DNA of 64,000 bases, taken from an uncultured Chitinophagaceae bacterium. Its GTDB lineage: Bacteria; Bacteroidota; Bacteroidia; Chitinophagales; Chitinophagaceae. Where the stretch lies: assembly GCA_934502905.1 (NCBI GenBank), contig CAKSVK010000001.1:13338-77337 (forward strand), written 5' to 3'. Shown piece after piece: positions 13,418 through 47,391 of the stretch. The notes beneath the pieces are model-generated. The model saw nothing but the letters and a program-made list of their open reading frames with translations, was not told the DNA's origin and ran no database searches. Within the stretch, counting starts at the first letter, position 1, and each line of letters begins with the position of its first letter. Both the position numbers and the translations under genes were made by a program.

Positions 13418-13483
13418 CGGGTGATGCCACCCGCTTGTAGAGACCCGTCGGGGGCGGTACCTGGTGTTTGGTGTCCCCACCAA
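13418..13483. repeat. Intergenic hairpin element, locus A
   Basis: Two hairpins lie between the small membrane protein gene and gldA. CGGGTG (13418-13423) pairs with CACCCG (13428-13433) around ATGC. TTGGTG (13468-13473) pairs with CACCAA (13478-13483) around TCCC, which is GGGA on the minus strand. Between them is GGGGGCGGTACC, like the G-rich flank of the other loci. The second hairpin fits the window-wide GTG-RRRA-CAC pattern; the first has the stem closure but not the purine loop. Confidence 0.6.
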
Positions 13484-13537
13484 CCATATTAATGTGCCCG
13501 CTGGCCGGGTTTATATATCAACACATTAAAAGTTAAG

Positions 13538-13545
13538 TATTTTTG
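13538..13545 (+). promoter_or_regulatory. -7 promoter box directly in front of gldA
   Basis: TATTTTTG fits TAnnTTTG exactly and ends only four bases before the ATG at 13550. No good TTTG is found at the usual distance upstream. If it is used, the mRNA would start at or next to the start codon and have almost no leader. Confidence 0.45.
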
Positions 13546-13549
13546 CGAC

Positions 13550-14476
13550 ATGTCGATTGAAGTAAAAAATCTTGTGAAGGTTTATGGAGCGCAAAAGGCA
13601 GTAAATGATATTTCCTTTTCGGTGAACAAAGGGGAGATCGTAGGTTTCCTGGGGCCGAATGGCGCCGGTAAATCTACGACGATGAAAATACTTACCGGCT
13701 ACCTGCAGGCAACACAGGGCGAAGCATTTGTGTGTGGACTCAATGTAAGAGACCATGCCATGCAGGCAAAGACCAGGATCGGCTATCTTCCCGAGTCGAA
13801 TCCGCTCTATTATGACATGTATGTGCGGGAATATCTTGGATTTGTAGCAGAAGTACACAAAGTACCCGGCAAGAAAGCAGCAGTAGACCGTACAATAGAA
13901 CTGGTGGGGCTTACTCCTGAGTCTAAAAAGAAGATAGGGCAGCTGTCTAAAGGTTATAAGCAAAGGGTAGGGCTTGCTGCCGCTTTGATACACGACCCCG
14001 AAGTGCTTATTCTCGATGAGCCTACTACCGGTCTTGATCCCAACCAGATAGCCGAAATAAGAGAAGTTATCCGCCGGCAGGGCAGGGATAAAACCGTCTT
14101 GTTTTCTTCGCATATCCTGCAGGAAGTGGAAGCGGTCTGCAACCGTGTCATCATTATTAACAAAGGTTCATTAGTAGCCAATGATACGGTCAGTAATCTT
14201 CAGGCAGGCAATAAAGAAATTCACCATGTTATGGTGCAGTTTGGTACGCCTGTATCACAGGAGCTTATCATTACAATTCCGGGCATAGATAAATTGAACA
14301 AGGTCTCGGAATTACAGTTTCAACTGACAACAAAAAGCCCGGAGCAACTGCGCCGGCAATTGATGGAGTTGGCATTGCAGCACCATCTCAATATCGTGTC
14401 CATGCACAGCGAATCGCAAAGTCTTGAATCTGTTTTCAAAACACTTACCGCCTCATCAGACGTTAACGAAATCTAA
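13550..14476 (+). CDS. gldA: Gliding-motility ABC transporter ATP-binding protein GldA
   Basis: The 308-residue ATPase has Walker A GPNGAGKST (about 36-44), a Q-loop region IGYLPESNPLYYDMYVREYL, the signature LSKGYKQRVGLAAALIHDP and Walker B VLILDEPTTGLDPNQ, then the switch histidine in VLFSSHILQEV. The PESNPLYYDMYVREYL stretch and the extra 70-residue C-terminal domain are typical of GldA, which works with GldF and GldG membrane proteins in Bacteroidota gliding or surface-protein export. No gldF or gldG is adjacent, which is common because gldA is often separate. A general ABC-2 export ATPase is the alternative. The gene stands alone. Confidence 0.85.
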   Translation: MSIEVKNLVKVYGAQKAVNDISFSVNKGEIVGFLGPNGAGKSTTMKILTGYLQATQGEAFVCGLNVRDHAMQAKTRIGYLPESNPLYYDMYVREYLGFVAEVHKVPGKKAAVDRTIELVGLTPESKKKIGQLSKGYKQRVGLAAALIHDPEVLILDEPTTGLDPNQIAEIREVIRRQGRDKTVLFSSHILQEVEAVCNRVIIINKGSLVANDTVSNLQAGNKEIHHVMVQFGTPVSQELIITIPGIDKLNKVSELQFQLTTKSPEQLRRQLMELALQHHLNIVSMHSESQSLESVFKTLTASSDVNEI

Positions 14477-14547
14477 AAAAAGTATTCCGATTAACGTTGA
14501 TTAACATTAAACAGCGGTTGTGATTTTTATTACACACTGAGTCGGGG

Positions 14548-14555
14548 TAAATTTG
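14548..14555 (+). promoter_or_regulatory. -7 promoter box before the beta-barrel protein gene
   Basis: TAAATTTG matches TAnnTTTG exactly and ends 45 bp before the ATG at 14601. A T-rich stretch lies 18-19 nt upstream at the -33 position, but a clean TTTG does not. Confidence 0.5.
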
Positions 14556-14600
14556 CGTTTACCTCAATATTCCTGACAAGGAATTCATAAACCCTCTTGC

Positions 14601-17126
14601 ATGAAATTGTATACAACTCTGTTAGGCATTTTATTTACCACATTTGTATGGGCACAGGAAGAAGAACCCGCTCCCCTGGTACCGGCTGTTCAGTTCAAAA
14701 GCAGCAAGCTGTTTGGAAAGGTAATGGATCCTAACACAGGTAAAGGCCTGGATGCCGCTTCCGTACAATTGTATACAATGAAGGATAGCCTTGTGGACGG
14801 AATGCTCACCAGGAGCAACGGAGACTTCAGCCTGTCGAACCTTGCAAGTGCCAGCTCGTATAAACTGATCATTACAGCGCTGGGTTTTGAAGATCATATA
14901 GATTTTGTTGAAACAGGTACAGCAGGCAGCACATTTGAAAAAGACCTGGGAGATATTTACCTGGAACCAAAAATAAAACAGCTCGAAGACGTGGTGATCG
15001 TCGGCAGTCGTCCGGCGCTGGAGATGGGTATTGACAGGCGTGTATTCAATGTTGCAAAAAGCCTGAACTCCACCGGAGGATCTGCTGTGGATATTATGCG
15101 GAATATCCCTTCTGTGTCGGTAGATGTAGATGGAAACATACAGCTCAGGAATGCTTCTCCCCTGATATTTGTAGACGGAAGACCAACCGTGCTGACCCTC
15201 GACCAGATACCTGCAGATAATATAGAAAAAATAGAGCTGATCACAAATCCTTCTGCAAAATACGACGCTGCTTCCGGCGCCGGTATCATCAATGTGGTTC
15301 TGAAAAAAGACAAACGGTACGGACTTAACGGCGTTGTAACAGCAAGTGTAGGTATGCCCAAACTTGCAGGGGGTAATGTAAACCTCAACCTTCGTGAAGG
15401 AAACGTAAACTTTTTTCTGAGTGGAGGATATAACCAGTCTGGCGGTATAGCCCGCGGAGAAGCGTACCGGGAGAACAAATCCAACGGGGTTGTGCAAAAT
15501 TACTTTAATCAGTATACTGATAATGACCGTATGCGTCGCTTCAATTTTATAAATTTTGGGATGGATTACCATATAGATAACCGCAACTCTATTTCTGTCA
15601 GCCAGACATTTGGCGGAGGAAGATTTTCGGGCACAGAATCACAGGAGCAGGTATACTATACCGGTACCAAAGAGCTGGATTACTACGGTTACAGGGATGG
15701 GGACAACACCAACAGGTTTAACAGGAGAAGCACCCGGTTGAACTTTAAGAGAACATATCCCAAGCAGGGAAAAGAGCTGACCGCTGACATTAATTATAAT
15801 TTTGGAAAAAGAACAGGTGTTTCCGAAGTGACCAACCGGTATATCAATCCGGATGGCTCCACCAACCGGTCTCCCAATACAGTTGAAAATGACGGGGGAA
15901 ATCATAATCATTCCGTGACTTTCCAGGCGGACTATGCCAATCCTATAGATGAAAACAGGAAGCTGGAGCTGGGAGTAAGAAGCTATCATAACTTTTACAG
16001 GAGCACTTTTAATGTGTTTAGCGTGGATAATTTTGGCAAAACACGGCTTCCCCTTAGTAACAATTACAAGTATGCTGAAATGGTCAATGCGATCTATGGA
16101 ACCTATTCGCAGAAAATAGGTGGATTTTCCTACCAGGTAGGATTAAGGGCAGAGCATTCAAAGTTTGACGGAACGCTGATTGACAGTGCTTATAAGTTCG
16201 GTTACCAATTCCCGTCAGGATTTAAGAATTTGATGAATGCGTTGTTCCCCAGCTTGTTCATTACACAGCAGATCAACGAAGATGACCAGATACAGGCTAA
16301 TTTTTCCCGCAGGATACGTCGCCCGGATTTCTGGCAAATGAGCCCCTTCATCGAGATCAGCGATCCATTCAATCTTCGCCAGGGGAATCCCGCCATACAA
16401 CCGGAGTTCATCAATTCATTTGAAGTGAATTATAACAAGTCTTATAACGGCGGAAATCTTTTGGGGACACTGTATTTCAGGAACAACCCGAGGGATATCA
16501 CCCAGTACAGCGATACGATCACTGCTGAAAAATACGAGGAGCTGCAGAATGCAGGTGTGGATCCCAATGCGATATTGAATACCTTTATTAATGCAGGTAC
16601 TACTAACCGTTATGGTGCGGAGCTGACCCTGCAGCAAAAATGGGGTAGTTTTGATATTACGCCTTCGGTTAACCTGCAGTACAGGACCGTTAATGCAAGT
16701 GTTGGAAGTGTAGATCTGAGCAATGAAGGCTTTAACTGGAGCGGCAAGCTGACAGCCAATTACCGCATCAAAGCGCCTGCGCAGAAAGTGATACACAACC
16801 TGAATTTCCAGGTGATCGGTGATTATGAGTCTGAAAGAGTGATACCGCAAGGAAAAATGCTTCCGCAATACGGAATTGATTTCGCTATCCGGAAAGATTT
16901 TCTTAAGAATAATCGTGCTACCGTTACCTTCTCTATTAACGATGTGCTGAATTCCAGGCGGTGGGGTACTATTTATGATACCGAAGATTTTTACCAGGAC
17001 TCTTACCGAAGGTGGAATGTCAGAAGCTTCCGGCTGACGGTGAGCTATAAGTTCGGAAATGCCGATTTCTCTATCCTGAACAGGAACAGGAACAATGGAG
17101 GCGGAGGTAATTTTGAAGAAGGATAA
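14601..17126 (+). CDS. Outer-membrane beta-barrel protein, TonB-receptor-like (CarboxypepD-regulatory domain, plug, barrel)
   Basis: The 841-residue protein begins with a signal peptide (MKLYTTLLGILFTTFVWAQ). A carboxypeptidase-regulatory-like beta-sandwich follows (about 37-120: KVMDPNTGKGLDAASVQLY, TRSNGDFSLSNL). The plug follows (about 130-230) with LEDVVIVGSRPALEMGIDRRVFNV, VDIMRNIPSVSVDVDGNIQLR and ELITNPSAKYDAASGAGIINV, and then a C-terminal barrel of the OMP_b-brl_3 type ending in aromatic-rich strands. This family resembles TonB-dependent receptors but is distinct from SusC; members are often of unknown substrate. It has its own promoter-like box and terminator, so it is probably monocistronic. 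The last residues (RNRNNGGGGNFEEG) form a low-complexity tail after the final strand. Confidence 0.87.
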   Translation: MKLYTTLLGILFTTFVWAQEEEPAPLVPAVQFKSSKLFGKVMDPNTGKGLDAASVQLYTMKDSLVDGMLTRSNGDFSLSNLASASSYKLIITALGFEDHIDFVETGTAGSTFEKDLGDIYLEPKIKQLEDVVIVGSRPALEMGIDRRVFNVAKSLNSTGGSAVDIMRNIPSVSVDVDGNIQLRNASPLIFVDGRPTVLTLDQIPADNIEKIELITNPSAKYDAASGAGIINVVLKKDKRYGLNGVVTASVGMPKLAGGNVNLNLREGNVNFFLSGGYNQSGGIARGEAYRENKSNGVVQNYFNQYTDNDRMRRFNFINFGMDYHIDNRNSISVSQTFGGGRFSGTESQEQVYYTGTKELDYYGYRDGDNTNRFNRRSTRLNFKRTYPKQGKELTADINYNFGKRTGVSEVTNRYINPDGSTNRSPNTVENDGGNHNHSVTFQADYANPIDENRKLELGVRSYHNFYRSTFNVFSVDNFGKTRLPLSNNYKYAEMVNAIYGTYSQKIGGFSYQVGLRAEHSKFDGTLIDSAYKFGYQFPSGFKNLMNALFPSLFITQQINEDDQIQANFSRRIRRPDFWQMSPFIEISDPFNLRQGNPAIQPEFINSFEVNYNKSYNGGNLLGTLYFRNNPRDITQYSDTITAEKYEELQNAGVDPNAILNTFINAGTTNRYGAELTLQQKWGSFDITPSVNLQYRTVNASVGSVDLSNEGFNWSGKLTANYRIKAPAQKVIHNLNFQVIGDYESERVIPQGKMLPQYGIDFAIRKDFLKNNRATVTFSINDVLNSRRWGTIYDTEDFYQDSYRRWNVRSFRLTVSYKFGNADFSILNRNRNNGGGGNFEEG

Positions 17127-17150
17127 ATATTTTTTATTACACAACAGGGG

Positions 17151-17180
17151 CGGCAGTTGAGAGATCGGCTGCCGTTTTTT
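17151..17180 (+). terminator. Intrinsic terminator after the beta-barrel protein gene
   Basis: CGGCAG (17151-17156) pairs with CTGCCG (17169-17174), and six Ts follow at 17175-17180. Confidence 0.75.
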
Positions 17181-17262
17181 GTATTACCAAAATATCCACA
17201 CCACTAACCAGGGGCAGGTCAAAGTCCCTGCGCTTTCCGGCAAATTGATGTAATTTGCGCCC

Positions 17263-18075: not shown

Positions 18076-18155
18076 ATATGTAGCCGCCTTTTGCTGGAGA
18101 AGCCGGGCCGGCGTACCGGGTTGAATAATAGCCACATTTTAAACCATGATCTTTT

Positions 18156-18671: not shown

Positions 18672-18711
18672 TGGAGAGTGGACAGTGAGAAGTGGACGGT
18701 TATAAGTAAAT

Positions 18712-18776: not shown

Positions 18777-18821
18777 CCTACCACTGCAACCTCCATCCTC
18801 TGTATCTTGCATCCTGAAACC

Positions 18822-19619: not shown

Positions 19620-19721
19620 CATATTCGTATGTGGATGTTTGGACACACTATTTGATACGGAACTTCGCTCTTTCAGCCCACGCTCCGTTTTTTAGTTGAT
19701 GGGAGTTCCATATACCCGTTT

Positions 19722-22095: not shown

Positions 22096-22112
22096 AACTC
22101 ATCCTTTCTTTT

Positions 22113-25614: not shown

Positions 25615-26076
25615 ATGAGCATGAAAAAAAATCTATTTAAAACCCTGCTTGCTTTTGCCATGGTGATCGCATATGGAACTGTTTCGGCACAGGAGAACCC
25701 TGTTGACCCTGCATTGATCTCAAAGGATCAAAAGGAGATCGTGAAGTTGCAGGCAAAATTGCTGGAAGACAGGGAAAAGTTATCCGAATTATATAAAAGC
25801 AAGGAAAAGTACCTGTCCGAAAAAGATAAAAAGCAGGCAGATGCACAGTCCGCTGCGGATAAAAACGAGCAGATGGCAAAAAGGCTGAGCAACGATACGG
25901 AGAGTAAAAAGAGAGCAAGAAGCGCAAAGAAAGCCGCCAATAGCGCTTCATCAGAAGCCAAAGCAGCCAGGAAAGCCGCTTCCAGGGTAGATAAAAATGC
26001 GAAAGAGATTGAAAGGCTGGAAAAGCAGATTGAGAAAAATGAAAAAAAGCTGGAGAGGCTGCAGCAAAAAGTTTAG
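25615..26076 (+). CDS. Secreted Lys/Ala/Glu-rich coiled-coil protein of unknown function
   Basis: A 153-residue protein with a signal peptide (MKKNLFKTLLAFAMVIAYG, cleavage likely after VSAQ). The rest is almost entirely charged helix: QKEIVKLQAKLLEDREKLSELY, an Ala/Lys/Ser-rich middle (SAKKAANSASSEAKAARKAAS) and a Leu-heptad end, ERLEKQIEKNEKKLERLQQ. It should form a periplasmic coiled coil. No family is recognised. A TTG (25567-25569) and TAACTTAG (25591-25598) 21 nt apart form a possible weak promoter, and a strong hairpin follows the stop, so the gene is probably its own unit. A second ATG two codons in (25621) could also be the start. Confidence 0.75.
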   Translation: MSMKKNLFKTLLAFAMVIAYGTVSAQENPVDPALISKDQKEIVKLQAKLLEDREKLSELYKSKEKYLSEKDKKQADAQSAADKNEQMAKRLSNDTESKKRARSAKKAANSASSEAKAARKAASRVDKNAKEIERLEKQIEKNEKKLERLQQKV

Positions 26077-26107
26077 CCGGTTTAAGAAAATATATCCTCC
26101 AGGGTTC

Positions 26108-26146
26108 AACAGAGGCGGTACCTGATATTCAGGCACCGCCTCTGTT
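26108..26146 (+). terminator. Strong hairpin (probable terminator) after the coiled-coil gene
   Basis: AACAGAGGCGGT (26108-26119) is the exact complement of ACCGCCTCTGTT (26135-26146). The loop itself can pair through CCTG and CAGG. AT-rich sequence rather than a pure T-run follows. Confidence 0.7.
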
Positions 26147-26244
26147 AATTATTATATGTGGGGATAAGCGTACATTCCTCCCATTAGAATAATAATGATT
26201 CGTTATCAATTCTATTAAAATGTCATCAATGATAAGTGGTTTGC

Positions 26245-26420
26245 GGGGACACAAACGGCCCATGCCACGGTCAGTGTCCCCACTATAGGCATCAACTTAG
26301 GCAAGCAGTCCATCTTTCCGGCACGTGGAGACACGTACCAGGGCGGTCGCCCCGGCACGTGTCTCCACGTGCCATCGCAAGAAATTCTTCTTAAATTGAC
26401 GGTTAGTGTCCCCACTGACC
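26245..26420. repeat. Intergenic hairpin array, locus B
   Basis: Several members of the GTG-RRRA-CAC hairpin family lie in 176 bp. GGCACGTG (26320-26327) pairs with CACGTACC (26332-26339) around GAGA, with one mismatch. GGCACGTG (26354-26361) pairs perfectly with CACGTGCC (26366-26373) around TCTC. Together they form one 54-bp inverted repeat centred on GGGCGGTCGCCC. GGTTAGTG (26401-26408) pairs with CACTGACC (26413-26420) around TCCC, with one G-T pair. AGTG-TCCC-CACT occurs at 26273-26284. GGGGACAC (26245-26252) complements GTGTCCCC (26274-26281). The flanks up to 26646 (226 bp) show no gene. Confidence 0.75.
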
Positions 26421-26646
26421 TAAAAAATGATTTTGAACCTGTTCATTATGATCCCCTTGCTTCAAAAAACACCAGGAAGTTTAGAGGTAAAAGGAAGACC
26501 GCATTTTTATAAGCCAAATCAATATTTCGTCGTGCTGCGGCTTTTGATACTAACTATGCCATATTACTGTAAATATTCACGGTGCGCGATGCACCTCTCT
26601 GCAGATCGTTGATTCTTGGCATCTCACCCCGCATGTATCGGCAGCA

Positions 26647-28227
26647 TTATTTGACCCTGTTGCGCGTGGGGGCAAGCCCACTTCTGCGGCTGGACATATA
26701 TTTTTCCTGGATCACTTTGCTGAGTGATTTTTCGTATACCTTGCTTTCTACCCAGGAGATGATATCGAGGTAGGCAAATGCACGCGTTTCGAAGCGGTTT
26801 TTTTCCAGGTGTTTTATCTTGTCTAAAAATTTCTCCAGCTCGGGCTTTAGCTGCCGCGGGGAAAGGCTGAAGGAACGGCGGAGAAAACGGAACATTTCTT
26901 CTTCCACAACGGTCAGGTTTTTCAGCTTTGCCATGAACCGGTAAACAGATTTGATGAGCGACTCCATTAAATCGTAATTGCCCAGCTCGTAATGTGCCAG
27001 CAGGTTCATCAGCCGCGCATAACTTTGCAGGTCGTTGCGCAGGTCTAAGGGGCCGTTGATGATCTTCAGCAGGTAGTCGATCGACTTTTCATATTTCCCT
27101 GCACCAAAATACAGGGTGGCAAACTTATAATTGAATACCAGGATCCTGTGTTTGTCCACGTACAGCTCATATTCCTGCAGCTTTGCCTCTATCTCCGGTA
27201 CCAGTTTCAGCCCTTCCTGGAAGGTTCCTGTCATCAGGTGCCAGTTAATGCGGGCCACATTGATATATATCGAAGTATGTGTTTTGAAATTGTCGTGGTG
27301 CTGTGCTATGGGTGACTGGTAAAATTCTTCAAACTTTTTTAATGTTCCCTGGAACTTCCGGTAGTTCCGCAGGTCAAAATGCGCATTCAGCAGGTTGTGC
27401 ATGCCTTTCACATAGTGCCCCGTTTCTACCGCTACCATCGTGGGGTGCTCATCAAAAAGAGCCATCCATTTTTCGCTGTAGCGGTAATACATCAGGAAAT
27501 CCTGCCTGATAAAGGCGTACCAGCAGTAGCTCTGGCACAGATACAGGTTTTCGTAGAACCCGTTGATGGCAGCCGTGTCCCTGGGAATATTGCTTTTAAA
27601 AAAAGATTTGATGTCGGCTTCATCTGCTTCATTCCTGGCATGTCCGTACTGTACATACCAGCGGTATAATAAAAGGGCCAGGTTGGACAGGCGTGTAACC
27701 CGGTCGATGTGTGCGCTGATGTCCAGCGCTTCCACGGAAAGCTGTTCTGTTTTTTCCAGGCTGCTCCGGGTGATATGTAGGGTCTCTATTTTCTTTTCCA
27801 GGGAAATAACCTGTGCCAGGAAGTTGAATTTCTGATTTGCTTTCGCGAGGTCCTTTGCCTTCTCAAGGATTTTCAGGCTTTGATGCTTTAGTCCCTTGTT
27901 ATAAAGCAGCCTGGCATGATCCAGGTGTTCACTGAGCTGAAGATCTGTATTGTCGCCCGTTCGTAAAAGGCGCAGGCTCGATAACAATTGCTTGTAAAGA
28001 TGTGTCTTCAGGTTGGCCAGCTGCGGCTTGGTGACCCCCTTCAGTTTTTTCAGCAAATGTTTTTCATCGTATTCGGTCAATTTATCCAGCGCATCAAATA
28101 ACTGTATGATTTTCAGATCTTCCTTGCCGGAGCTTCTTTTTATATACAGTTTAAAATGCCTTTTTTCGGATTTTTCCAATGACCGGACCAACTGAAATAA
28201 TGCATCTGTAAAACTGTTGGCCGTCAT
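26647..28227 (-). CDS. Helical-repeat (TPR-like) protein of unknown function
   Basis: The 526-residue protein is soluble, without signal peptide or membrane helix, and made almost wholly of amphipathic helices. Pairs such as EHLDHARLLYNKGLKHQSLKILEKAKDLAK and FATLYFGAGKYEKSIDYLLKIIN have the spacing and small/aromatic pattern of TPR units, so it is probably a protein-protein interaction scaffold. The N-terminus, FTDALFQLVRSLEKSEKRHFKLYI, occurs in a group of conserved hypothetical Bacteroidota proteins. No enzymatic motif is seen. The last residues (SSRRSGLAPTRNRVK) are basic and unstructured. The neighbours, a hairpin array and a candidate small RNA, do not suggest a role. Confidence 0.75.
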   Translation of the reverse strand: MTANSFTDALFQLVRSLEKSEKRHFKLYIKRSSGKEDLKIIQLFDALDKLTEYDEKHLLKKLKGVTKPQLANLKTHLYKQLLSSLRLLRTGDNTDLQLSEHLDHARLLYNKGLKHQSLKILEKAKDLAKANQKFNFLAQVISLEKKIETLHITRSSLEKTEQLSVEALDISAHIDRVTRLSNLALLLYRWYVQYGHARNEADEADIKSFFKSNIPRDTAAINGFYENLYLCQSYCWYAFIRQDFLMYYRYSEKWMALFDEHPTMVAVETGHYVKGMHNLLNAHFDLRNYRKFQGTLKKFEEFYQSPIAQHHDNFKTHTSIYINVARINWHLMTGTFQEGLKLVPEIEAKLQEYELYVDKHRILVFNYKFATLYFGAGKYEKSIDYLLKIINGPLDLRNDLQSYARLMNLLAHYELGNYDLMESLIKSVYRFMAKLKNLTVVEEEMFRFLRRSFSLSPRQLKPELEKFLDKIKHLEKNRFETRAFAYLDIISWVESKVYEKSLSKVIQEKYMSSRRSGLAPTRNRVK

Positions 28228-36060: not shown

Positions 36061-39000
36061 CTAGATTTCGTCTTCCTTATTAATTTTTACTTTCATGCTG
36101 CGAACCTTCAGCTTCATTTTCCGCCTGAGTCCCATTTTTTCCTCGATGCCTGCAAAAATTACATAGAGACCGGGAATAATGATGACCCCGAAGATGGTCC
36201 CGATCAGCATACCGCCTGCCGCCGCCGTTCCGATGGATCTGTTACCCAATGCCCCCGCACCGGATGCAATACACAACGGGATAAGACCGGCGATGAAAGC
36301 AAAGGAGGTCATCAATATCGGGCGTAACCTCGATGCAGCGCCTTCTATGGCTGCAGTTAATACGGCTACTCCCATCTTTTTTCGCTGGATAGCAAATTCA
36401 ACGATCAGGATAGCATTTTTGCCCAGCAAGCCTATGAGCATGACCAACGATACCTGGGCATAGATATTATTTTCCAGTCCCGCCAGCTTCAGGGCCAGGA
36501 AGGAGCCGAAAATACCCGCCGGCAGCGACAGGATCACAGCCAGCGGCAACAGAAAACTTTCATATTGCCCTGCCAGGATCAGGTATACGAAGATCAGACA
36601 GATGGCAAAAATATAAACAGCCTGGTTGCCCGACAGTATCTGTTCGCGGGTCATCCCCGACCATTCATAGTCAAAGCCACGTGGCAGAACCTTATCTGCT
36701 GCTGCCTGCACTGCCTGGATAGCTTCGCCACTGCTCCTGCCCGGGGCAGCGTCACCGTTGATCAATGCAGAGGTGTACATATTATACCGGGTCATCTGCT
36801 CGGGACCAAAAACCCGCTCCATTCTGATAAATGTAGAGAAGGGTACCATTTCACCTTTGTGGTTCTTCAGGTACAGGTTCAGCACATCCTCGGGATTTTT
36901 CCTGTATTGGGGGGATGCCTGTACCATTACTTTATACATCTGCCCGAACCGGATAAAATTGGTAGCGTAGTAACTTCCCAGCAACGTTTGCAAGGTGCTC
37001 ATCGCGTTATCAATGGTAATACCTTTTTTGGCTGCCATATCCTGGTCCACCGTAATGAGGTATTGCGGAAAATTGGGGTTGAACCCTGTAAAAGCGCTAC
37101 CTACAACGCCGGACTTCATAACTTCCTCGATCACATCATCCGCAACCTGTTTGGTTTGCTGCAGGTTCTCACTTCCCGTCTTATCCAGCAGCCTGAACTC
37201 GAAGCCGCTGGAGTTACCAAATCCTGGTACCGTTGGGGGCGGCAGGAATTCGATGCTGGCATCCTTGATATGATTTGTTTTTTGCTCCAGCGCCCTGATC
37301 AGGTCATTTACTGACTCATCCCGTTCACTCCAGGGTTTCATATTGATCATGGCCATACCATAGGAAGCGCCTGAAACCTCTGTTACCAGACTATACCCTG
37401 CCAACGTGGATATATTGTCAACGGCATCAAAATCTCCCGCTATTTGCTCTATTTCGTCCAGTATTACCCCGGTACGCTCAACAGTAGAGCCGGGAGGCGT
37501 TGTCACATTCACGTAAATAATACCCTGGTCTTCTGTAGGAATAAACCCGGAAGGCAGGATGGTGCTTGCGCCCCAGGTAGCGACGAAGAATATGACCAGT
37601 ATGCCGAGTGTTACCATTCGCCTGCCTGCTATCCTGCCGATCAATCCCTGGTATTTATTTTGGGTAGCGTCATATGTTTTATTGAATCCTTTGAAGAAAC
37701 GGGCCATCCAGCCTTTCCTTTTGTTAGGGTCGGAGTGACGTAACATCAACGCGCATAGAGCTGGTGTAAGCGTTAAGGCATTGATACCCGATATGACGAT
37801 AGATATTGCCAGGGTAAGTGAAAATTGCCGGTAGAACACACCCACGGGCCCTGACAGGAATGCTACGGGCACGAATACCGCAGACATCACCAGTGTGATG
37901 GCAATGATCGCGCTGGTGATCTCCTTCATGGCGGCAATAGTGGCGTCCATGGGTCCCATATGATCCTCCGTCATTTTTACATGGACGGCCTCGACGACGA
38001 CAATGGCATTGTCGACGACGATACCAATTGCCAGCACCAGTGCAAAAAGGGTAAGCAGGTTAATGGAGAAGCCAAGGGCCTGCATGAAGGCCAGGGTACC
38101 GATCAATGCAACCGGAACCGCCAATGCCGGGATGATGGTAGACCGGACATCCTGCAGGAAGATAAATACCACGATGAACACCAGGATGAAGGCTTCCAGC
38201 AGGGTCTTCAATACTTCTTTGATAGATGCATCCAGGAACCTGGAAACATCATACGCAAAGTTGTAATCCATGCCGGGTATAAAGGATGATTCCTTTAGTT
38301 CCGCCATACGTTCTTTGATATTGGTGATCACCTCACGTGCGTTGGAGCCGGGGCGCTGCTTGATCATAATAGAAGCAGATGGCTTTCCGTCTGTTTTGGA
38401 ATCCATGCTGTAGCTCAGCGCACCGAACTCGATGTCGGCAATATCGCTCAGCCTGAGAATGGATCCGTCTGCATCTGCTCTTATCACTATATTTTTATAT
38501 TCTTCCGGTAAGGAAAACTTACCGGTATACCGCAGCACATATTCCAGCGTATTGGTTTCCTTGCCGGAGCTTTCCCCTGTTTTACCCGGTGCTGCTTCCA
38601 CGTTTTGGTTACGCAGCGCCGTAATTACCTCGTCTGCAGATACGTTATAGGCCAACATGCGGTGCGGGCGAAGCCAGATACGCATCGCGTAATCCTTTGC
38701 ACCCATGATGGCAGCGAAGCCGACCCCTTCAATTCTTTTTAATTCTTTCAGTACATTGATATCGGCAAAGTTGAAGATGAAGTCTTCGTTCATCGTGCTG
38801 TCTTCACTCACAATATTCAGATACAACAGCATGCTGTTTACTTCCTTTTCTGTTACCACCCCTGCCTTGATCACCTCTTCGGGCATTTCATCCAGTACGG
38901 TAGTCACGCGGTTTTGCACGTTCACTGCTGCCACATCGGGGTCTGTACCTACCTGGAAAGAAATGGTGATCAAGGTGATACCGTTGTTACTCGTAACGGT

Positions 39001-39237
39001 ATTCATATAGGTCATGCCGGGCACCCCGTTGATCGCTCTTTCGAGCGGGGTGGCTACCGCGTCCACGCAAACCTGTGCATTGGCGCCGGTATAGTTGGCT
39101 GTTACGGTAACCGACGGGGGCACGATATCGGGGAACTGGGTAATAGGTAATGTAAAGAGGGATAATAATCCCAATAACGTTATGATAAGCGATATAACCA
39201 GGGATAATATGGGTCTCCTGATAAAAGTTTCAACCAT
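36061..39237 (-). CDS. RND efflux permease, HAE1 (AcrB-like) family
   Basis: The 1058-residue protein has twelve membrane helices and two large periplasmic loops, beginning with the family-standard FIRRPILSLVISLIITLLGLLSL. VTVTANYTGANAQVCVDAVATPLE and FLPPPTVPGFGNSSGF are porter-domain landmarks. In helix 4 the sequence is LAIGIVVDNAIVVVEAVH: Asp409 corresponds to AcrB Asp407, but the next residue, the second proton-carrying aspartate in AcrB, is Asn410. The relay lysine of helix 10 is present in LIGLLGKNAILIVEFA. The family exports amphiphilic compounds by proton exchange. The basic C-terminus (RRKMKLKVRSMKVKINK) is longer than usual. The adaptor gene lies 69 bp upstream and the outer-membrane gene directly downstream. 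Confidence 0.95.
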   Translation of the reverse strand: MVETFIRRPILSLVISLIITLLGLLSLFTLPITQFPDIVPPSVTVTANYTGANAQVCVDAVATPLERAINGVPGMTYMNTVTSNNGITLITISFQVGTDPDVAAVNVQNRVTTVLDEMPEEVIKAGVVTEKEVNSMLLYLNIVSEDSTMNEDFIFNFADINVLKELKRIEGVGFAAIMGAKDYAMRIWLRPHRMLAYNVSADEVITALRNQNVEAAPGKTGESSGKETNTLEYVLRYTGKFSLPEEYKNIVIRADADGSILRLSDIADIEFGALSYSMDSKTDGKPSASIMIKQRPGSNAREVITNIKERMAELKESSFIPGMDYNFAYDVSRFLDASIKEVLKTLLEAFILVFIVVFIFLQDVRSTIIPALAVPVALIGTLAFMQALGFSINLLTLFALVLAIGIVVDNAIVVVEAVHVKMTEDHMGPMDATIAAMKEITSAIIAITLVMSAVFVPVAFLSGPVGVFYRQFSLTLAISIVISGINALTLTPALCALMLRHSDPNKRKGWMARFFKGFNKTYDATQNKYQGLIGRIAGRRMVTLGILVIFFVATWGASTILPSGFIPTEDQGIIYVNVTTPPGSTVERTGVILDEIEQIAGDFDAVDNISTLAGYSLVTEVSGASYGMAMINMKPWSERDESVNDLIRALEQKTNHIKDASIEFLPPPTVPGFGNSSGFEFRLLDKTGSENLQQTKQVADDVIEEVMKSGVVGSAFTGFNPNFPQYLITVDQDMAAKKGITIDNAMSTLQTLLGSYYATNFIRFGQMYKVMVQASPQYRKNPEDVLNLYLKNHKGEMVPFSTFIRMERVFGPEQMTRYNMYTSALINGDAAPGRSSGEAIQAVQAAADKVLPRGFDYEWSGMTREQILSGNQAVYIFAICLIFVYLILAGQYESFLLPLAVILSLPAGIFGSFLALKLAGLENNIYAQVSLVMLIGLLGKNAILIVEFAIQRKKMGVAVLTAAIEGAASRLRPILMTSFAFIAGLIPLCIASGAGALGNRSIGTAAAGGMLIGTIFGVIIIPGLYVIFAGIEEKMGLRRKMKLKVRSMKVKINKEDEI

Positions 39238-41041: not shown

Positions 41042-41072
41042 CAAATATACAACATCTGGCGGGGATGTTTTT
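41042..41072 (-). promoter_or_regulatory. Promoter box for the small-secreted-protein/efflux operon
   Basis: CAAATATA at 41042-41049 reads TATATTTG on the minus strand, an exact TAnnTTTG. The nearest TTG on that strand (41075-41073) is 23 nt away, slightly far, so the -33 match is weak. Confidence 0.5.
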
Positions 41073-41177
41073 CAATTTAACCGGGATTTTGCAGTAGCGA
41101 TTTCACCTGCTACCGGGTAGGGGTGCTTTTGCGTTTGACATCCCGGTGCTAATACGGAGAGGGTAAGCTGCTGGGAA

Positions 41178-41331
41178 AGTTGTGTGGGATATGCAACTGG
41201 CCCCGTCGATGGAACATCGTACGCCTGCCTGAACGACGCAGTTTGGGAAGTCGCGTGGGGACACGCGACGGGGCGGTTAGGGAACACACAACCGGGCAAC
41301 CTATTTCCCCTGCACGTGTCCTCACGTGCAG
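41178..41331. repeat. Intergenic hairpin array, locus C
   Basis: GTCGCGTG (41250-41257) pairs perfectly with CACGCGAC (41262-41269) around GGGA and is followed by GGGGCGGTT. CTGCACGTG (41310-41318) pairs perfectly with CACGTGCAG (41323-41331) around TCCT, the inverse orientation. A degenerate copy at 41178-41198 pairs AGTTG with CAACT and continues through wobble pairs around GGA. The whole 41000-41384 stretch holds no other gene. Confidence 0.75.
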
Positions 41332-41384
41332 CTCGAAGGTGAGCCTCCTGATTGGAGACCTGGGATGACGATGGATGGCTCAGC

Positions 41385-44300
41385 TTATTGAAAACATTGG
41401 CGGCAGCAAACCTGTTTAACGTCATTTTGCAGGCGGCCTGCCGTGCCGGATTTTTGGGCCGATTCCGGCATTTCATAAAATACCAGCTTATCGTTACTCA
41501 CACCAACGACAAGCACGGGTTTTCCCTTGACATTAACGGCTACCACGCTTTTGACATCTCCCCTGATGCTGAGTCCTGATTGAAATTGTGGTATATAGTT
41601 AAAATGAGCGTTCCCATCGTTGACCAGTACACAACCATAGGTGGCATCGATGGCTCCGATCTTTAACCGGTTATCCGAACGATTACCCAGCAGCAGCAGA
41701 TCAGTTTTGTCATCGCCATTCAAATCGGTGGCAAGCACATGGGTGATGGCAGAAAACTGCGCCTGCGCCGGCAATACAATTTTTTCAAAACGTCCCTCCC
41801 GGTTCAGAAAAACCACGGACCGGCATTCGGTCGCCGTCAGAACAGTTGCCCTGGCAAGTTCCCCGGGCTTAAAAATGTCCTTCATGGTGGCATCTGCATA
41901 CTGTTTATAAGAGGTAAATCTTTTACGCATAGCGTAGATCTGCTCATTGAGCTCGTCCCGGCTCACAAAGGGGTAGCTGGTACCCTGTACATAAAAATTG
42001 AGAAAAGGATCGATGGAGCCATTGTTATCAAAATCCGCGTACCAGAGCGTGGCAGGCTCTTCTTCCGTCATATGCAAGGGACTGTTCTGCCCGATATTGC
42101 CTGCTATGATGTCCATGTTGCCATCGCCATCCACATCGGCAACCTGCAGGCTGAACCAGATACCGGTTTCCTGTTTTCCAAAATAGGCTGCTGTATGATC
42201 TGTAAATCCTTCCGGTTTATTCAGGTACAGCATCACCGGCATAAATTCCCCGCACATGACCAGGTCCTTTCTTCCATCGTTGTCCATATCCACCCAGCGG
42301 GCATCTGTTACCATACCGGCAAAAGAAAACCGTATTTCAGCTGAGGTGAACTTTCCAGTGCCATCATTCACCAGCAAATAACTTTCAGGGGCCTGGGGAT
42401 ATTTGCCGGGTATTACCCTTCCGCCTATGAACAGGTCGATGTCGCCATCGTTGTCAAAATCGCAGGGACGTACACAGGATGCAGCGGAACTGTTTAATAC
42501 CGGAAGCCCATCGGTCACTTTAAAATTCCCCCTGCCATCATTGATATGAAGTTCATCCTGCAGCGCCTTTGTACCCGGTTCATAATAAGCATAGCCACCT
42601 TTGGCAATATACAGATCATCATACCCGTCTCCATTGGCGTCAAAAAAAGCAGCAGCGGCCGTGGTGGAGAGATTTTCATCCCCCATACTGACTGCTGCAG
42701 TAAAGCTGCCGTCCTCTCTCTGCCGGTAGATCTTCCCCGGCTGGCCGGGGTCGCCGCTGACAAAAATATCTTCCCGTCCATCTTTGTTGATATCGCCTGC
42801 AGTTATTACCGGGCCGGTATGCGAATACATGAACTGCATCAGTAACTGGCGCTTAAAATCATTTTCTTCCGGCGTCTCATTAGTATGCCTGATAAGATCG
42901 GACATTTTTTTAAACAGTGTTTTATCTGTCAATGCATTTCTATGATAGGGCTGACCGTCGCCGGTATATTGTATGGTGAGGCGTTGGTTGACCGCAGTTT
43001 GGGGCAGCAGTTGAACAGTATTGTCCGGCCAAACGATCTTAATAGAATCAATGATGCTTTGAGCGCCCATGCCAAAATGCAGGACCGTTGTTACAGAAGA
43101 AAGGAAACCCCGGCCGGGATGCAGCTCCTGGTATTGATGGTTATCCCGGCTGTATACGAATATCTTGGCTCCTATGGCATGGATATTGGGTTTTTTGTAG
43201 GAGAGCTGCAAGGAAATATAGTTGCTGTTAGCCTGTTCCCTTGACATGTTTTTATAAACAAGGGGTGGTTTGTTTATCTGGCTGACGATCAGGTCCAGGT
43301 CTCCGTCGTTGTCCAGGTCCACATATACGGATCCGCTGGAAATGCCCGGCTGGTCCATTCCCCATTGTTTTGTCATATTGGAAAAACGAAGATCCCGGTT
43401 GTTTTTGAACATATAATTGTTCAGTGGTGTGGAGGGCATGGCGTTGATAAGGTCCATAAACCTGGAGGGCTCTCTTTCCATTGCCTTTTTTATTTTGTAG
43501 TCTCCCCAGTAACGCAGGAAATCCTTATCGGTAAAGTCGCGTACGAAGCCGTTGGAAACGAAAATATCTTTGTAACCATCATTGTCAAAATCGGCAAGCA
43601 AGGTACACCAGCTCCAGTCGGTATTGGATACCCCGGCAAACCGGCCGATCTCGCTGAAAGTGCCATCCCCGTTGTTTAACTGCAGCATATTGCGCATGTA
43701 CTGCCTGTTCAGGTCCTGACCTGTCATCACCTGAAATGATTCATAGTTTTCCTGTAACTGCAATAACTTCTGCCGCCGGTTATCTTCTGGAAGCATATCC
43801 AGAGACATGATATCCGGCAAGCCGTCGTTATTAATATCTGCGATATCCACCCCCATGGAAAACTGGGGCAGGTACCTGAAATACCGGCGGGAACTTTCTA
43901 TAAAAGTACCATCGTGGTTGTTGATATAGAGATAGTCCGGCTCATTGTAATCATTGGTTACATAGATATCGTCCCAGCCATCCTTGTTTATATCCGCTAT
44001 GGCAATGCCAAGTCCGAAAGTAAGCGAGTTCTGTATAATGCCCGCCTGTTTTGACACTTCTACAAAACGGTTATCCCTGTTTTCAAAGAGCTTGTTCCCC
44101 GCCAGCTCGTTCACGTCATTCCTGTAGTTTGCCAGCTCCTGGTTATCGATCTTTTGAACAGTGTGGTTCAGCAGGAACATATCCAGGTCGCCATCGTTAT
44201 CGTAGTCGAAAAAAACTGCCTGGGTACTATAGCTGCTGTTATCCAGCCCGAATGCGGCAGCTTCTTCCTCAAACTTCAGATTCCCCTTGTTGATGAATAA

Positions 44301-44747
44301 CTGGTTTTTCCGCTGATCATCTGGAAATCTCCCCGAGTAGCATATATAGATATCCAGCAACCCGTCGCCGTTCACATCCGCCATGGTCACACCATTCTTC
44401 CAACTGTCAGGTCTGCCTTTCATCCCGTTGCCGGCTGCCGCAGTAATGTCCTTAAACTTCATGTTGCCCAGGTTCAGGAACAACTTATTGGACTTCATGT
44501 TCGCTGTAAAAAAGAGATCCATCAGCCCATCGTTGTTGATATCTCCTACAGCTATGCCGCCACCGTTATATAAGTAGTCGTACACCAGCACATTCAGCTC
44601 TTCGGTTTCGCTGATATCATTGCTAAAACGAAGTCCTGTTTCTTTGGGTGCTAATAACCTGAAGAGCGGTGGCTCCGCCGGAACATTGCCGGAGAAGGCA
44701 ACGGTTATTGTCCATATGCAAAGCAGCTGCAGAAAAACTATTCTCAT
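41385..44747 (-). CDS. Large secreted VCBS/FG-GAP repeat protein with ASPIC/UnbV domain
   Basis: The 1120-residue protein begins with a signal peptide (MRIVFLQLLCIWTITVAFS). About fourteen calcium-type motifs of the form DxNxDGxxD follow, for example DINNDGLMD, DVNGDGLLD, DYDNDGDLD, DFDNDGYKD, DLDNDGDLD and DANGDGYDD, in two blocks. Between the blocks, at about residues 500-610, lies an ASPIC/UnbV module (IHAIGAKIFVY, HPGRGFLSSVTTVLHFGMG, DSIKIVWPDN). The fold should be one or two beta-propellers stabilised by calcium. Such proteins are frequent beside SusC/D loci and are thought to bind glycans or other surface partners. The start at 44747 is preferred because the upstream frame (MTVNHHNS) lies inside a direct repeat. 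Confidence 0.88.
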   Translation of the reverse strand: MRIVFLQLLCIWTITVAFSGNVPAEPPLFRLLAPKETGLRFSNDISETEELNVLVYDYLYNGGGIAVGDINNDGLMDLFFTANMKSNKLFLNLGNMKFKDITAAAGNGMKGRPDSWKNGVTMADVNGDGLLDIYICYSGRFPDDQRKNQLFINKGNLKFEEEAAAFGLDNSSYSTQAVFFDYDNDGDLDMFLLNHTVQKIDNQELANYRNDVNELAGNKLFENRDNRFVEVSKQAGIIQNSLTFGLGIAIADINKDGWDDIYVTNDYNEPDYLYINNHDGTFIESSRRYFRYLPQFSMGVDIADINNDGLPDIMSLDMLPEDNRRQKLLQLQENYESFQVMTGQDLNRQYMRNMLQLNNGDGTFSEIGRFAGVSNTDWSWCTLLADFDNDGYKDIFVSNGFVRDFTDKDFLRYWGDYKIKKAMEREPSRFMDLINAMPSTPLNNYMFKNNRDLRFSNMTKQWGMDQPGISSGSVYVDLDNDGDLDLIVSQINKPPLVYKNMSREQANSNYISLQLSYKKPNIHAIGAKIFVYSRDNHQYQELHPGRGFLSSVTTVLHFGMGAQSIIDSIKIVWPDNTVQLLPQTAVNQRLTIQYTGDGQPYHRNALTDKTLFKKMSDLIRHTNETPEENDFKRQLLMQFMYSHTGPVITAGDINKDGREDIFVSGDPGQPGKIYRQREDGSFTAAVSMGDENLSTTAAAAFFDANGDGYDDLYIAKGGYAYYEPGTKALQDELHINDGRGNFKVTDGLPVLNSSAASCVRPCDFDNDGDIDLFIGGRVIPGKYPQAPESYLLVNDGTGKFTSAEIRFSFAGMVTDARWVDMDNDGRKDLVMCGEFMPVMLYLNKPEGFTDHTAAYFGKQETGIWFSLQVADVDGDGNMDIIAGNIGQNSPLHMTEEEPATLWYADFDNNGSIDPFLNFYVQGTSYPFVSRDELNEQIYAMRKRFTSYKQYADATMKDIFKPGELARATVLTATECRSVVFLNREGRFEKIVLPAQAQFSAITHVLATDLNGDDKTDLLLLGNRSDNRLKIGAIDATYGCVLVNDGNAHFNYIPQFQSGLSIRGDVKSVVAVNVKGKPVLVVGVSNDKLVFYEMPESAQKSGTAGRLQNDVKQVCCRQCFQ

Positions 44748-44762
44748 AACAAAACTATTATG

Positions 44763-44927
44763 ATGATTTACGGTCATCGTTATGCTGGACGTATTTACCT
44801 CCGGTGGAAAAGTTCAAATCTTCACTTTGTGCAAGTTTCCGGCCGGTGGGACACCGGCCGGAAACTTGCACTACTGGCGGGTGTTCCCACCCGCCTGCGA
44901 AAAATGATTCCGGTCATTGTTATGCTG
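44763..44927. repeat. Direct repeats flanking hairpin locus D
   Basis: A 24-25-bp sequence beginning ATGATT and containing CGGTCAT and GTTATGCTG occurs at 44763-44787 and again at 44904-44927 with three or four differences. The two copies bracket the locus D hairpins, 116 bp apart, just upstream of the VCBS gene. Confidence 0.6.
44829..44895. repeat. Intergenic hairpin pair, locus D (includes a perfect 20-bp stem)
   Basis: Bases 44829-44848 are the exact complement of 44852-44871, a 20-bp stem ending in GGTG/CACC around a GGA loop. Four bases later GGCGGGTG (44876-44883) pairs perfectly with CACCCGCC (44888-44895) around TTCC, which is GGAA on the minus strand. Both stems use the GTG/CAC closure of the family but share no outer sequence with loci B, C or E. 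They lie in the leader side of the VCBS gene, between it and the DUF4038 gene. Confidence 0.8.
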
Positions 44928-45004
44928 TAGTACAATTTCCTGTTGACGATCTACATCTTTTCAAACGATTATATCCGGGATGTGGTTCAGATGATTACAG
45001 CACT

Positions 45005-46675
45005 TTATTTTTTCCTTACCCCCGCAATAAACACCCAGGGCTGCTTACTGTCGGGAGCAGTGAATGAGCCTGCTGTTCCTGTTGACCCTTCCGAATGAAA
45101 TTCCCCTTTCACAGGATCAAACCAATAGCAAGGCATATTTTCCGGAATGCCTTTTATTGAAATGTTTCCACCTTTGTCCAGGTAAGAAATATAAAATACG
45201 CCCTCCCTGGCAAGCAATGGCAACTTATTACCGGTCAGGTCCCATCTTCTTTCCATATCCTTGAAATCAAATCCGTCAAAAGCTCTTGAAATGCAGCCAA
45301 CATACCGGGAGCCTTCAAACTGCAGGGCATCTTTCCAGTTATAAGGTGCATTTGTCCATTCTTCCCAGCCGGGCTCATCCGGCGTTATCTTCCATTGCCA
45401 GACACTCACTGCACCGTATACGACACCCATGGTGCCGCCGTGCATCAGCTGGTTCCATGCATCTTCTCCCTGCCACCAGCCAATGCCTACCGTACCTTCA
45501 TTCATTCTTTCGTAAGTAGGCTCTCCGTTCATGACCGCTTTGACAGGCTTATTGTCGTACATTCTTTCCACTTTGTGATACAGGTGTTTCCCGTCATGTC
45601 CTGTTTGCGCCCATTGAAAATCGAGCCAGGCAGCGCCCTGGTGCATGCGGTTGTAATGATAACAATGGCTGCTGTCGTTTACGGCCCAGGTTGCCAGGAA
45701 ATCATCGCAGGGGTTGTAATGTAAGCCTGTCGGCTGTTCGTAAGCATCCCATTTTTCGAGTATTTCCCCGGCAGGCACCACACCGGGCGCATTGCCATGC
45801 CCGTCCAGGCTCAGTAGCCAAAGTGCCGGGCTGCTGCCATACCTTGCCATCAGGTATTTCGTATACCGGGCATATTCTTCTCCGGCTGCCGTCGGTCCCA
45901 GGGAGCCTTTTCCTTTCCAGCCGTAACCATGTGTCAGCGGTGCGAATACGGGCACTATCTCATGACGGTGGAGAATGCTCATGATAGAATCCAGCGTTTG
46001 AAAATAGGAGGGGTTCAGCTGGTTCAGGTGCCCCTGGGGTATATCATAAAATCCCCGGGCAAACCCTTCAACTGTATTCCTGGCTTCGGGACCTTCCGCC
46101 TGCTTATCCGGCTGTACACCTATCAGCAGGGCAGTATTGAATCCTTTTTTACGGCGGTCTGCTGCATATTCTTCTACCTGTTCCGTTGTGGCACGAAAAG
46201 GAATAGACCAGGGAGTGTCGCCTACCAGCAGCATAGGGGTACCGTCGGCATGTATGATATTTCTTTTTCCTTCAGACATGCGCAGCAATCCGTGTTGTTC
46301 CAGCTTATTGTTACCTGTATACGGGACAGACCGTAAGGCGCCGCTTTTTTCAAACCCTTCATCTTCTACAGATGAATATACCTGCCAATACCAGGTATGT
46401 CCCGCATCCGGTGGTGCGAACCGCAGCTTCCAGGTATTGCCGCCATCCCAGAAAACAGGTCTTACCAGGCTGTCGCCTTTGTCGTTTACGAACCAGGCCC
46501 AAACTTCCGTTTCTGTGTATGGATTGTTGTATTGTTTATTTGATTGAATGGTTATTTCATAGCTGGTCCATTGAGGAACAGGTACGGGTTCACTTGTATT
46601 GGCGCAGGCATGCAGGAATATGATACACGTTATGTATAATATCTTTTTCCATGCTGCAGTAAAATTTGTTATCAT
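45005..46675 (-). CDS. DUF4038 glycoside hydrolase lipoprotein (GH140-like, with DUF5060 and C-terminal domain)
   Basis: A lipoprotein signal ends IFLHAC (Cys24). An N-terminal DUF5060-like beta-domain (about 35-120: VWAWFVNDKGDSLVRPVFWDGG) is followed by a DUF4038 TIM barrel (about 140-470) starting HADGTPMLLVGDTPWSI. A C-terminal putative collagen-binding-like domain ends CYWFDPVKGEF and QPWVFIAGVRKK. Two barrel acids stand out as catalytic candidates: Asp291 in LLSLDGHGNAPG and Glu385 in VMNGEPTYE. Characterised DUF4038 enzymes of GH140 remove apiose from rhamnogalacturonan II, but the family is broad, so the substrate is open. It is one of four hydrolases in this locus. Confidence 0.85.
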   Translation of the reverse strand: MITNFTAAWKKILYITCIIFLHACANTSEPVPVPQWTSYEITIQSNKQYNNPYTETEVWAWFVNDKGDSLVRPVFWDGGNTWKLRFAPPDAGHTWYWQVYSSVEDEGFEKSGALRSVPYTGNNKLEQHGLLRMSEGKRNIIHADGTPMLLVGDTPWSIPFRATTEQVEEYAADRRKKGFNTALLIGVQPDKQAEGPEARNTVEGFARGFYDIPQGHLNQLNPSYFQTLDSIMSILHRHEIVPVFAPLTHGYGWKGKGSLGPTAAGEEYARYTKYLMARYGSSPALWLLSLDGHGNAPGVVPAGEILEKWDAYEQPTGLHYNPCDDFLATWAVNDSSHCYHYNRMHQGAAWLDFQWAQTGHDGKHLYHKVERMYDNKPVKAVMNGEPTYERMNEGTVGIGWWQGEDAWNQLMHGGTMGVVYGAVSVWQWKITPDEPGWEEWTNAPYNWKDALQFEGSRYVGCISRAFDGFDFKDMERRWDLTGNKLPLLAREGVFYISYLDKGGNISIKGIPENMPCYWFDPVKGEFHSEGSTGTAGSFTAPDSKQPWVFIAGVRKK

Positions 46676-46786
46676 TATTAATGTGTTTGACTATCTACAA
46701 ATGTTGAACCATGGTGTCACATACAACAGATTCCTTGTACCCCGGAATGACAAGCAGGGAATATGTGTTGAACATTCGCCTGTAAA

Positions 46787-47391
46787 GGTTGCGTGAAGAC
46801 ACGCAACCGGGCGACCCGGGGCCTCCGCAGTGCTCCTTATGCCAGGACTTGTGCGCAAGCAGGGGATACTGCCGGTGCTGAATCTTACAGCACAACATCC
46901 GGTTTTGATGTTTCTGACGCACTTCCTGTCATCCGGGGTCAGCATTCCGCTCTCTTATTTCCACCCTGAAACCCCGGCACGTGTCCCCACGTGCCATTTG
47001 AGGTCGGTGGAATCCTATTTGTTTCCCCTTAGTGTCGTCTCCTTATGCCCGGGCTTGTGCGCAGGCAGGGGGACGTTGCAGGTTCTACGTACTTATAACA
47101 AAACATCCGGTTTTGATGTGTCTGATGCACTTCCTGTCATATCCGGGGTCAGCATTCCGTTCTCTTATTTCCACCCTGAAACCCCGGCACGTGTCCTCAC
47201 GTGGCATTTGAGGTCGGTGGAATCTTATTTGTTTCCCCTTAGTGTCGTCTCCTCATGCCCGGGCTTGTGCGCAGGCAGGGGGACGTTGCAGGTTCTACGT
47301 ACTTATAACAAAACATCCAGTTTTGATGTGTCTGACACACTTCCTGTCATATTCAGGAGCAGCATCCCGTTCTCCCATTTCCACTGTGAAA
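46787..47391. repeat. Tandem 210-bp repeat with hairpins and broken GH31 gene tails, locus E
   Basis: About 2.6 units of a 206-210-bp sequence span roughly 46835-47391; for example GTCAGCATTCCG recurs at 46938 and 47148, and GTGCGCA at 46851, 47057 and 47267. Each unit has a copy of the last 89 bp of the GH31 gene. The right-most copy is the real gene end; the middle copy reads TGG AAA TAA, a premature stop; the left copy has a 2-bp deletion. Hairpins: GGTTGCGTG/CACGCAACC around AAGA (46787-46808), GGCACGTG/CACGTGCC around TCCC (46976-46995), and GCACGTG/CACGTG around TCCT (47186-47205). Confidence 0.85.

Follow-up and report, generated by a model that had tools for sequence, protein, structure and literature searches.

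GTG/CAC-tipped hairpins in Chitinophagaceae DNA as probable REP elements of a RAYT lineage with group 5 motifs

We analysed a 64-kb stretch of Chitinophagaceae DNA (hereafter the window) that contains a family of short hairpins of the form stem-GTG-purine loop-CAC-stem. With a probability that we put at about 0.87, these hairpins are repetitive extragenic palindromes (REPs), some of them arranged as inverted pairs that resemble REP doublets forming hairpins (REPINs) or bacterial interspersed mosaic elements (BIMEs), and they belong to a lineage of REP-associated tyrosine transposases (RAYTs) carrying the group 5 / subclass 2.6 motifs. The same kind of hairpin flanks close RAYT genes in related genomes, and the left-hand and right-hand hairpins of one gene agree in stem and loop.

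Hairpins in the window

The initial annotation had reported at least eleven such hairpins at five intergenic loci, and this observation was confirmed: we found 12 distinct hairpins, all within those five loci. A strict count, in which GTG-[AG]3-4-CAC had to be followed by further pairs (at least four contiguous, or five of six), gave 8 in the window, compared with 300 dinucleotide shuffles that averaged 0.03 and never exceeded 1; all 63 alternative closing triplets pooled gave only 3. The decamer GTGRRRNCAC occurred 11 times where 2.75 were expected (none of 100 shuffles got to 11), each time at one of the five loci, and seven of the ten perfect hairpins in the window (at least 8 bp, loop of 3-5) were GTG/CAC-closed with a purine loop. 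The comparison with shuffled sequence that had been put forward as a check, here run on the window, therefore came out far above the controls. The count held, but not the independence of every member, because the 46.98-kb and 47.19-kb hairpins are repeated along with the units of a 210-bp tandem repeat. This repeat occupies 46833-47391 in 2.7 copies, two of which contain a REP hairpin.

All five loci are situated between long open frames. Short frames overlap hairpins at 13185-13487, 41072-41476 and 46830-47480, and the two that were searched against Pfam (13185-13487 and 41072-41476) gave no match. As 12 short, intergenic and repeated palindromes in 64 kb, the hairpins are REPs in the broad sense. 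The loops GGGA, GAGA and GGAA fit the GNRA definition, as had been noted, and AAGA, AGGA and GGA do not.

The hairpins were also recovered by a covariance model built from 38 hairpins with four-base purine loops, all taken from the flanks of RAYT genes in relatives and none from the window. Its 13 best matches in the window (expectation value, E, below 1) fell at the 12 hairpins, all in the five loci, and the next-best match had an E of 1.7; three of the 12 were weak when taken singly (E 0.3, 0.42 and 0.95). The features are as follows.

13465..13486, minus strand: REP hairpin, loop GGGA, stem GGTTG with one mismatch (model match 13459-13486, E 0.0024)
26268..26289, minus strand: weak REP-like hairpin, loop GGGA, short stem AGTG/CACT (model match 26262-26288, E 0.3; decamer present)
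26319..26340, plus strand: REP hairpin, loop GAGA, stem GGCAC with one mismatch, first arm of an inverted pair (model match 26319-26346, E 0.018)
26340..26353, no strand: GGGC..GCCC spacer between the inverted hairpins (fold of 26319-26374, z scores -7.63 and -9.05 for the two strands)
26354..26373, minus strand: REP hairpin, loop GAGA, perfect stem GGCACGTG, second arm of the inverted pair (model match 26347-26374, E 4.1e-5)
26401..26420, minus strand: weak REP-like hairpin, loop GGGA, stem GGTCAGTG with one mismatch (model E 0.42; decamer present)
41250..41269, plus strand: REP hairpin, loop GGGA, perfect stem GTCGCGTG (model match 41249-41276, E 0.029)
41310..41331, minus strand: REP hairpin, loop AGGA, perfect stem CTGCACGTG (model match 41304-41331, E 1.4e-5)
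44829..44871, no strand: 20-bp perfect palindrome, GGA loop, GTG/CAC closure (model matches on both strands, E 0.024 and 0.42)
44876..44895, minus strand: REP hairpin, loop GGAA, perfect stem GGCGGGTG (model E 0.039)
46787..46808, plus strand: REP hairpin, loop AAGA, perfect stem GGTTGCGTG (model match 46787-46814, E 6.6e-5)
46976..46995, minus strand: REP hairpin, loop GGGA, perfect stem GGCACGTG, in the 210-bp tandem repeat (model match 46969-46996, E 0.0046)
47186..47205, minus strand: weak copy of the 46976..46995 hairpin in the next tandem unit, loop AGGA (model match 47190-47201, E 0.95; decamer present)

The pair at 26319-26374 consists of a hairpin, AGGGCGGTCGCCCC and an inverted hairpin, and a single strand of it folds as one long hairpin (the z score of -9.05 is that of the minus strand). 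The pairs at 41249-41331 and 44829-44896 each fold as two separate hairpins. In an alignment of 11 window sequences 92% of 88 stem cells were paired, compared with 73% after shuffling, although the 92% is inflated in that 7 of the 11 had been chosen by a criterion requiring pairing. Changes on both sides were seen at five of the eight stem pairs (15 cells against 4.7), which bears out the claim that the stems vary yet stay paired. The alignment of the 38 RAYT-flank hairpins behaved similarly, with five of nine pairs changing on both sides (65 cells against 18 shuffled); since GTG/CAC and pairing were the criteria by which these hairpins had been chosen, both features are partly there by construction.

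RAYT genes and their flanking hairpins in relatives

The link to a RAYT emerged from the reading frames that lie between hairpins at three loci, two of which (L199 and L210) encode a RAYT and one of which (L189) does not. At L199 and L210 hairpins stand on both sides of frames of 184 and 222 residues respectively, the gene in the longer frame probably starting further in. The L199 protein carries NHIH, FWQ, YIHNNP and SSA, i.e. all four group 5 / subclass 2.6 motifs, and the NCBIfam model REP_Tyr_transpos matches the L199 and L210 proteins at 8.9e-19 and 1.4e-19. The solved TnpAREP structure 4er8 gave a weak match to the RAYT (E 0.023). Over 43 homologues NH[LIV]H was present in 38, WQ in 32 and SS in 40. 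According to the available part of the published classification, RAYTs of subclass 2.6 are found mostly in Bacteroidetes and are characterised by NH[LIV]H, WQ, YIH[QN]NP and SS, and their genes are flanked by "atypical secondary structures" that lack GT[AG]G and have copies elsewhere in the genome (PMC6006769). Judged by its motifs, the RAYT described here, a protein of about 180 residues, would therefore be of this kind.

A protein search of 195 genomes of the family at E of 1e-20 or below yielded 76 matches, spread over 51 genomes, and 30 of these loci were examined; together with two further close loci from the PF01797 set these make up 32 close RAYT loci, whose flanks were scanned to 350 bp. 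Hairpins were present on both sides at 22 of the 32 and on one side at 3, and when the two founding loci (L241 and L248), which count among the 32, are left out, on both sides at 20 of 30. With the same flanks a GTG/CAC hairpin was found at 0 of 14 distant homologues and 0 of 44 other Y1 loci, and none flanked any of 4000 random places. The PF01797 loci, 30 from G001-G006 and 30 from 11 hairpin-rich genomes, had no GTG/CAC hairpin within 350 bp; the set of 60 comprises 44 that are dissimilar to the RAYT, 14 distant homologues and 2 close homologues. The initial annotation had pointed to a RAYT or Y1 transposase gene flanked by the same hairpin; this arrangement was found in relatives and not in the window, so that the repeats are REPs in the sense of flanking a RAYT gene in the former only.

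Other short-loop hairpins, several with GGA-like loops and with a different closing triplet, occur on both sides of 10 of the 14 distant homologues, in a scan that used a looser criterion, had no control and was read from a list. Seven loci with other or distant RAYTs (L128, L130, L131, L220, L221, L231 and L238) likewise have short-loop hairpins on their flanks, closed by triplets other than GTG/CAC. Since distant homologues carry hairpins closed in other ways, GTG/CAC closure is a property of a RAYT sub-lineage.

At E of 0.01 or below the RAYT-flank model matched in 101 of the 195 genomes (best 38 candidates per genome at most; E-values rough). Matches were found in 44 of 51 genomes with a close RAYT and in 57 of 144 without (Fisher p 4e-9, which is indicative only, as the genomes are related and the drafts incomplete). 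A fixed 12-mer matched in 28 of the 195 genomes, and since a reversed-pattern control also matched many genomes once or twice, only those with several matches mean much; another hairpin pattern was, in most of the six genomes searched, no commoner than its control. In a survey that started from the GTG/CAC 12-mer the stems varied by genome or subfamily (GGTTC, GGCGC, GGTGC, CCATTC, GGGCT) while GTG, CAC and the purine loop recurred. Besides the tip, a tail next to the stem, on the 3' side in the strand that has the purine loop, is constant; it is usually GGC, and GATAR in some lineages. Inspection by eye of the aligned tailed hairpins and of flanks gave no GTAG or GTGG 5' foot, and by that tag these are not canonical REPs. 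At two places, L037 9765-9913 and L038 9770-9921, GTAGAGACG-type hairpins adjoin GTG/CAC hairpins at the same position in two genomes.

The relatives, scanned together with the window set, contain 22 inverted dimers of the form GCC-hairpin-spacer-hairpin-GGC (outward tails were the selection criterion), and in 20 of them 21-37 bp separate the decamers. In the window pair at 26319-26374 the tails face inward.

Several points weigh against the proposed identification. The constancy of GTG/CAC in the alignment is partly a product of selection for it. The NCBIfam scores of the L199 and L210 proteins (67.8 and 70.4) lie below the model cut-off of 80, Pfam gave no match for either protein, and the Y motif (YIH[QN]NP, searched for as a slightly widened pattern) is present in just 19 of the 43 homologues. 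A tblastn search of the window with one RAYT as query found no such gene (best E 1.9). Hairpins are on neither side at 7 of the 32 close loci, and 57 genomes have model matches yet no close RAYT. Among these, G112, G182 and G015 have at least 30, at least 33 and at least 17 matches, and their hairpins may be orphan REPs or the work of another mover. In the nearest relative, G001, the sole intact RAYT found (L269) is without a hairpin, and the genome itself has one weak model match only.

Stem variation, insertion and alternative explanations

At the 22 loci with hairpins on both sides the stem to the left and the stem to the right of one RAYT agreed at 5.27 of 6 positions, compared with 3.91 when permuted, and the loops were identical in 59% of cases compared with 9%; none of 10000 permutations reached either value. 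The tails point outward on both sides at 16 of the 22. The stems thus follow the RAYT locus, and because a locus carries one characteristic stem to its left and right, the differences between stems may largely be differences between lineages. The initial annotation had regarded a constant loop with a variable stem as the reverse of what copying would leave, which need not be so given that stems are locus-specific on both sides of a RAYT, and the stem-rewriting copying process that it had suggested was not demonstrated. Its interpretation is supported in part: recognition of the loop end, which it had raised alongside selection on structure, is retained as the best reading, but as one that we infer from a RAYT link seen in relatives.

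The mechanism that we propose is as follows. When the DNA is single-stranded, e.g. as lagging-strand template, each repeat would fold, and the RAYT, a small Y1 (HuH) transposase, would recognise the tip (GTG-purine loop-CAC) together with the adjoining tail, which beside the stem is usually GGC (GCC on the other strand). The enzyme would require a paired stem and read little of its sequence, and would cut and move the repeat. Tip and tail would stay constant, and the stem would drift through paired changes or be replaced as RAYT lineages diverge. For group 3 RAYTs, the available part of a published study describes single loop bases as critical and a stem mismatch as harmful to cutting, the sequence of the stem mattering less (PMC8266576). 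The pattern observed here is what one would expect from a transposase with tip recognition and a requirement for stem pairing, and in this lineage binding, cutting and transposition would be carried out by the RAYT; the genome from which the window comes presumably has, or had, such a gene.

At two places relatives differ in the presence of the repeats. A 1058-residue protein encoded at 36061-39237 is 93% identical (best segment) to a protein of a Chitinophagaceae metagenome-assembled genome (L027, G001), and the window is collinear with G001 over 19.7-41.1 kb in six aligned blocks. At the orthologous place G001 lacks the hairpins of 26.2-26.4 kb and has different intergenic DNA, so this block was either gained in one lineage or lost in the other. 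Beside it, at 26465-26614, lies a different repeat of about 150 bp, with matches at seven further places in G001 (74-79% identity, full or part length) and an eighth, shorter match.

In G182 a hairpin dimer (L180, approximately 1960-2090) is absent at the same place in G015 and G112 (L274 and L277). A 28-bp direct repeat with one mismatch flanks the dimer at the filled site and is present as a single copy in both empty sites; flanking direct repeats are not usual for IS200/IS605. This was the one clean insertion case among 22 dimers. Empty sites were sought for three more dimers and gave no clean junction: in one relative the place was occupied by different DNA, in another more than the dimer was missing, and for the third dimer just one of the flanks could be located. 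Direct repeats scoring 25 were found at two of the 22 dimers (maximum 11 in 440 random pairs), of which that at L173 was dropped as a target duplication, another dispersed repeat being present on both sides. Five more dimers scored 8-10, compared with 22 of the 440 random pairs at 8 or above; at one of the five (L199) the repeat is a piece of the hairpin itself, and as target duplications these five are suggestive only.

A bolder version of the tip-reading account holds that the RAYT specifies GTG-loop-CAC plus the GGC tail and leaves the stem free, and that the dimers insert with a long target duplication, as in the single clean 28-bp case, which would imply a different route of insertion. 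To our knowledge the known single-strand pathway of IS200/IS605 makes no such long target duplication. We regard this combination as improbable.

It is very unlikely that the hairpins act primarily as RNA, i.e. as transcript tetraloops that stabilise mRNA ends or are bound by protein, with selection on loop and pairing. Each of the five loci is downstream of at least one of the long frames next to it, some loops are GNRA and pairing is maintained through two-sided changes, but Rfam gave no match in the window at gathering scores, and non-GNRA loops are common (AAGA and AGGA, and AAAA, TATA and ACAA in RAYT-linked copies). An RNA role moreover leaves the hairpins on both sides of RAYT genes unexplained. 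A secondary mRNA role of REPs could exist beside the reading by a RAYT.

We give equally little credence to the proposal that the hairpins are passengers of some other mobile element, such as a short element with inverted repeats that depends on a DDE transposase, and lie near RAYTs for other reasons. Two observations point that way. In G005 hairpin pairs sit inside units of about 190 bp with matching inverted ends like AATGACTATCCGCAATTTGGTTTA at six of eight loci inspected by eye (L090, L092, L094, L096, L098 and L102), and the 28-bp direct repeat on both sides of the G182 dimer is unlike IS200/IS605. However, such ends were not seen by eye at the window pairs or at the inspected dimers of other genomes, and close RAYTs are flanked on both sides at most loci by hairpins that match each other. 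Finally, that the hairpins are chance palindromes or terminators is already contradicted for the set as a whole, even though the stem sequences differ and three members are weak singly, by the strict count, by their recovery with an independently built model and, for terminators, by a scan of 26000-26700 (the only block scanned), in which neither of two terminator-like sites was at a hairpin.

Hairpins of this kind are also struck by another element. A 1541-bp insertion sequence of G001, which encodes a DDE transposase (PF01609), lies in the hairpin tip in four full copies (L298, L299, L300 and L301), so that the tip is an insertion-sequence target in this relative. The three copies found through the hairpin motif have 10-bp flanking repeats (one exact, one with 1 mismatch, one with 2 mismatches), and the fourth, found through the element, has an exact 10-bp repeat within a similar GTG...CAC hairpin; the search with the element scored two candidates per genome and is not a census. 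Insertion sequences that target REPs are already known (PMC1525189, available part).

Comparison with known systems

The identification of the hairpins as REPs supplies a concrete motif and a RAYT partner for Bacteroidetes repeats previously termed "atypical", and accounts for a constant loop alongside a varying stem. It also makes available natural variants of stem, loop and tail with which the reading of DNA hairpins by a transposase can be tested. The GTG-loop-CAC motif was not found in the literature searched, most subscription journals and supplements being outside its reach.

The closest relatives are the REPs of subclass 2.6 (group 5 of Bertels), which, in the available part of their description, also flank a RAYT with NH[LIV]H, WQ and SS, also lack a GT[AG]G tag, also have copies elsewhere in the genome and come from the same phylum (PMC6006769). 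That account describes them as atypical and weaker in secondary structure; a constant GTG-loop-CAC tip, a GGC tail and a free stem do not appear in the part of it that is available. With canonical GTAG-tagged REPs, BIMEs and REPINs, as far as the accessible text of three papers describes them (PMC3733652, PMC3116915, PMC2817692), the hairpins share short intergenic palindromes, inverted pairs and a flanked RAYT, but they have no GTAG/GTGG foot, and here the tip is constant while the stem varies between RAYT loci. The CGTC-tagged palindromic repeats are alike in having 8-9 bp stems, 4-5 nt loops and dimers and in occurring in Bacteroidetes too; they differ in that no CGTC tag was noted here and in that our hairpins are linked to a RAYT, whereas the available sections report CGTC repeats as not flanking RAYTs (PMC3733652). 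The ends of IS200/IS605 elements are similarly single-strand hairpins read by a Y1 transposase (PMC6006769, available part), unlike which the repeats described here spread without the gene, with a 28-bp flanking direct repeat at one copy. On this reading the hairpins are REPs of a RAYT lineage, a known type, here in a form that keeps the tip constant.

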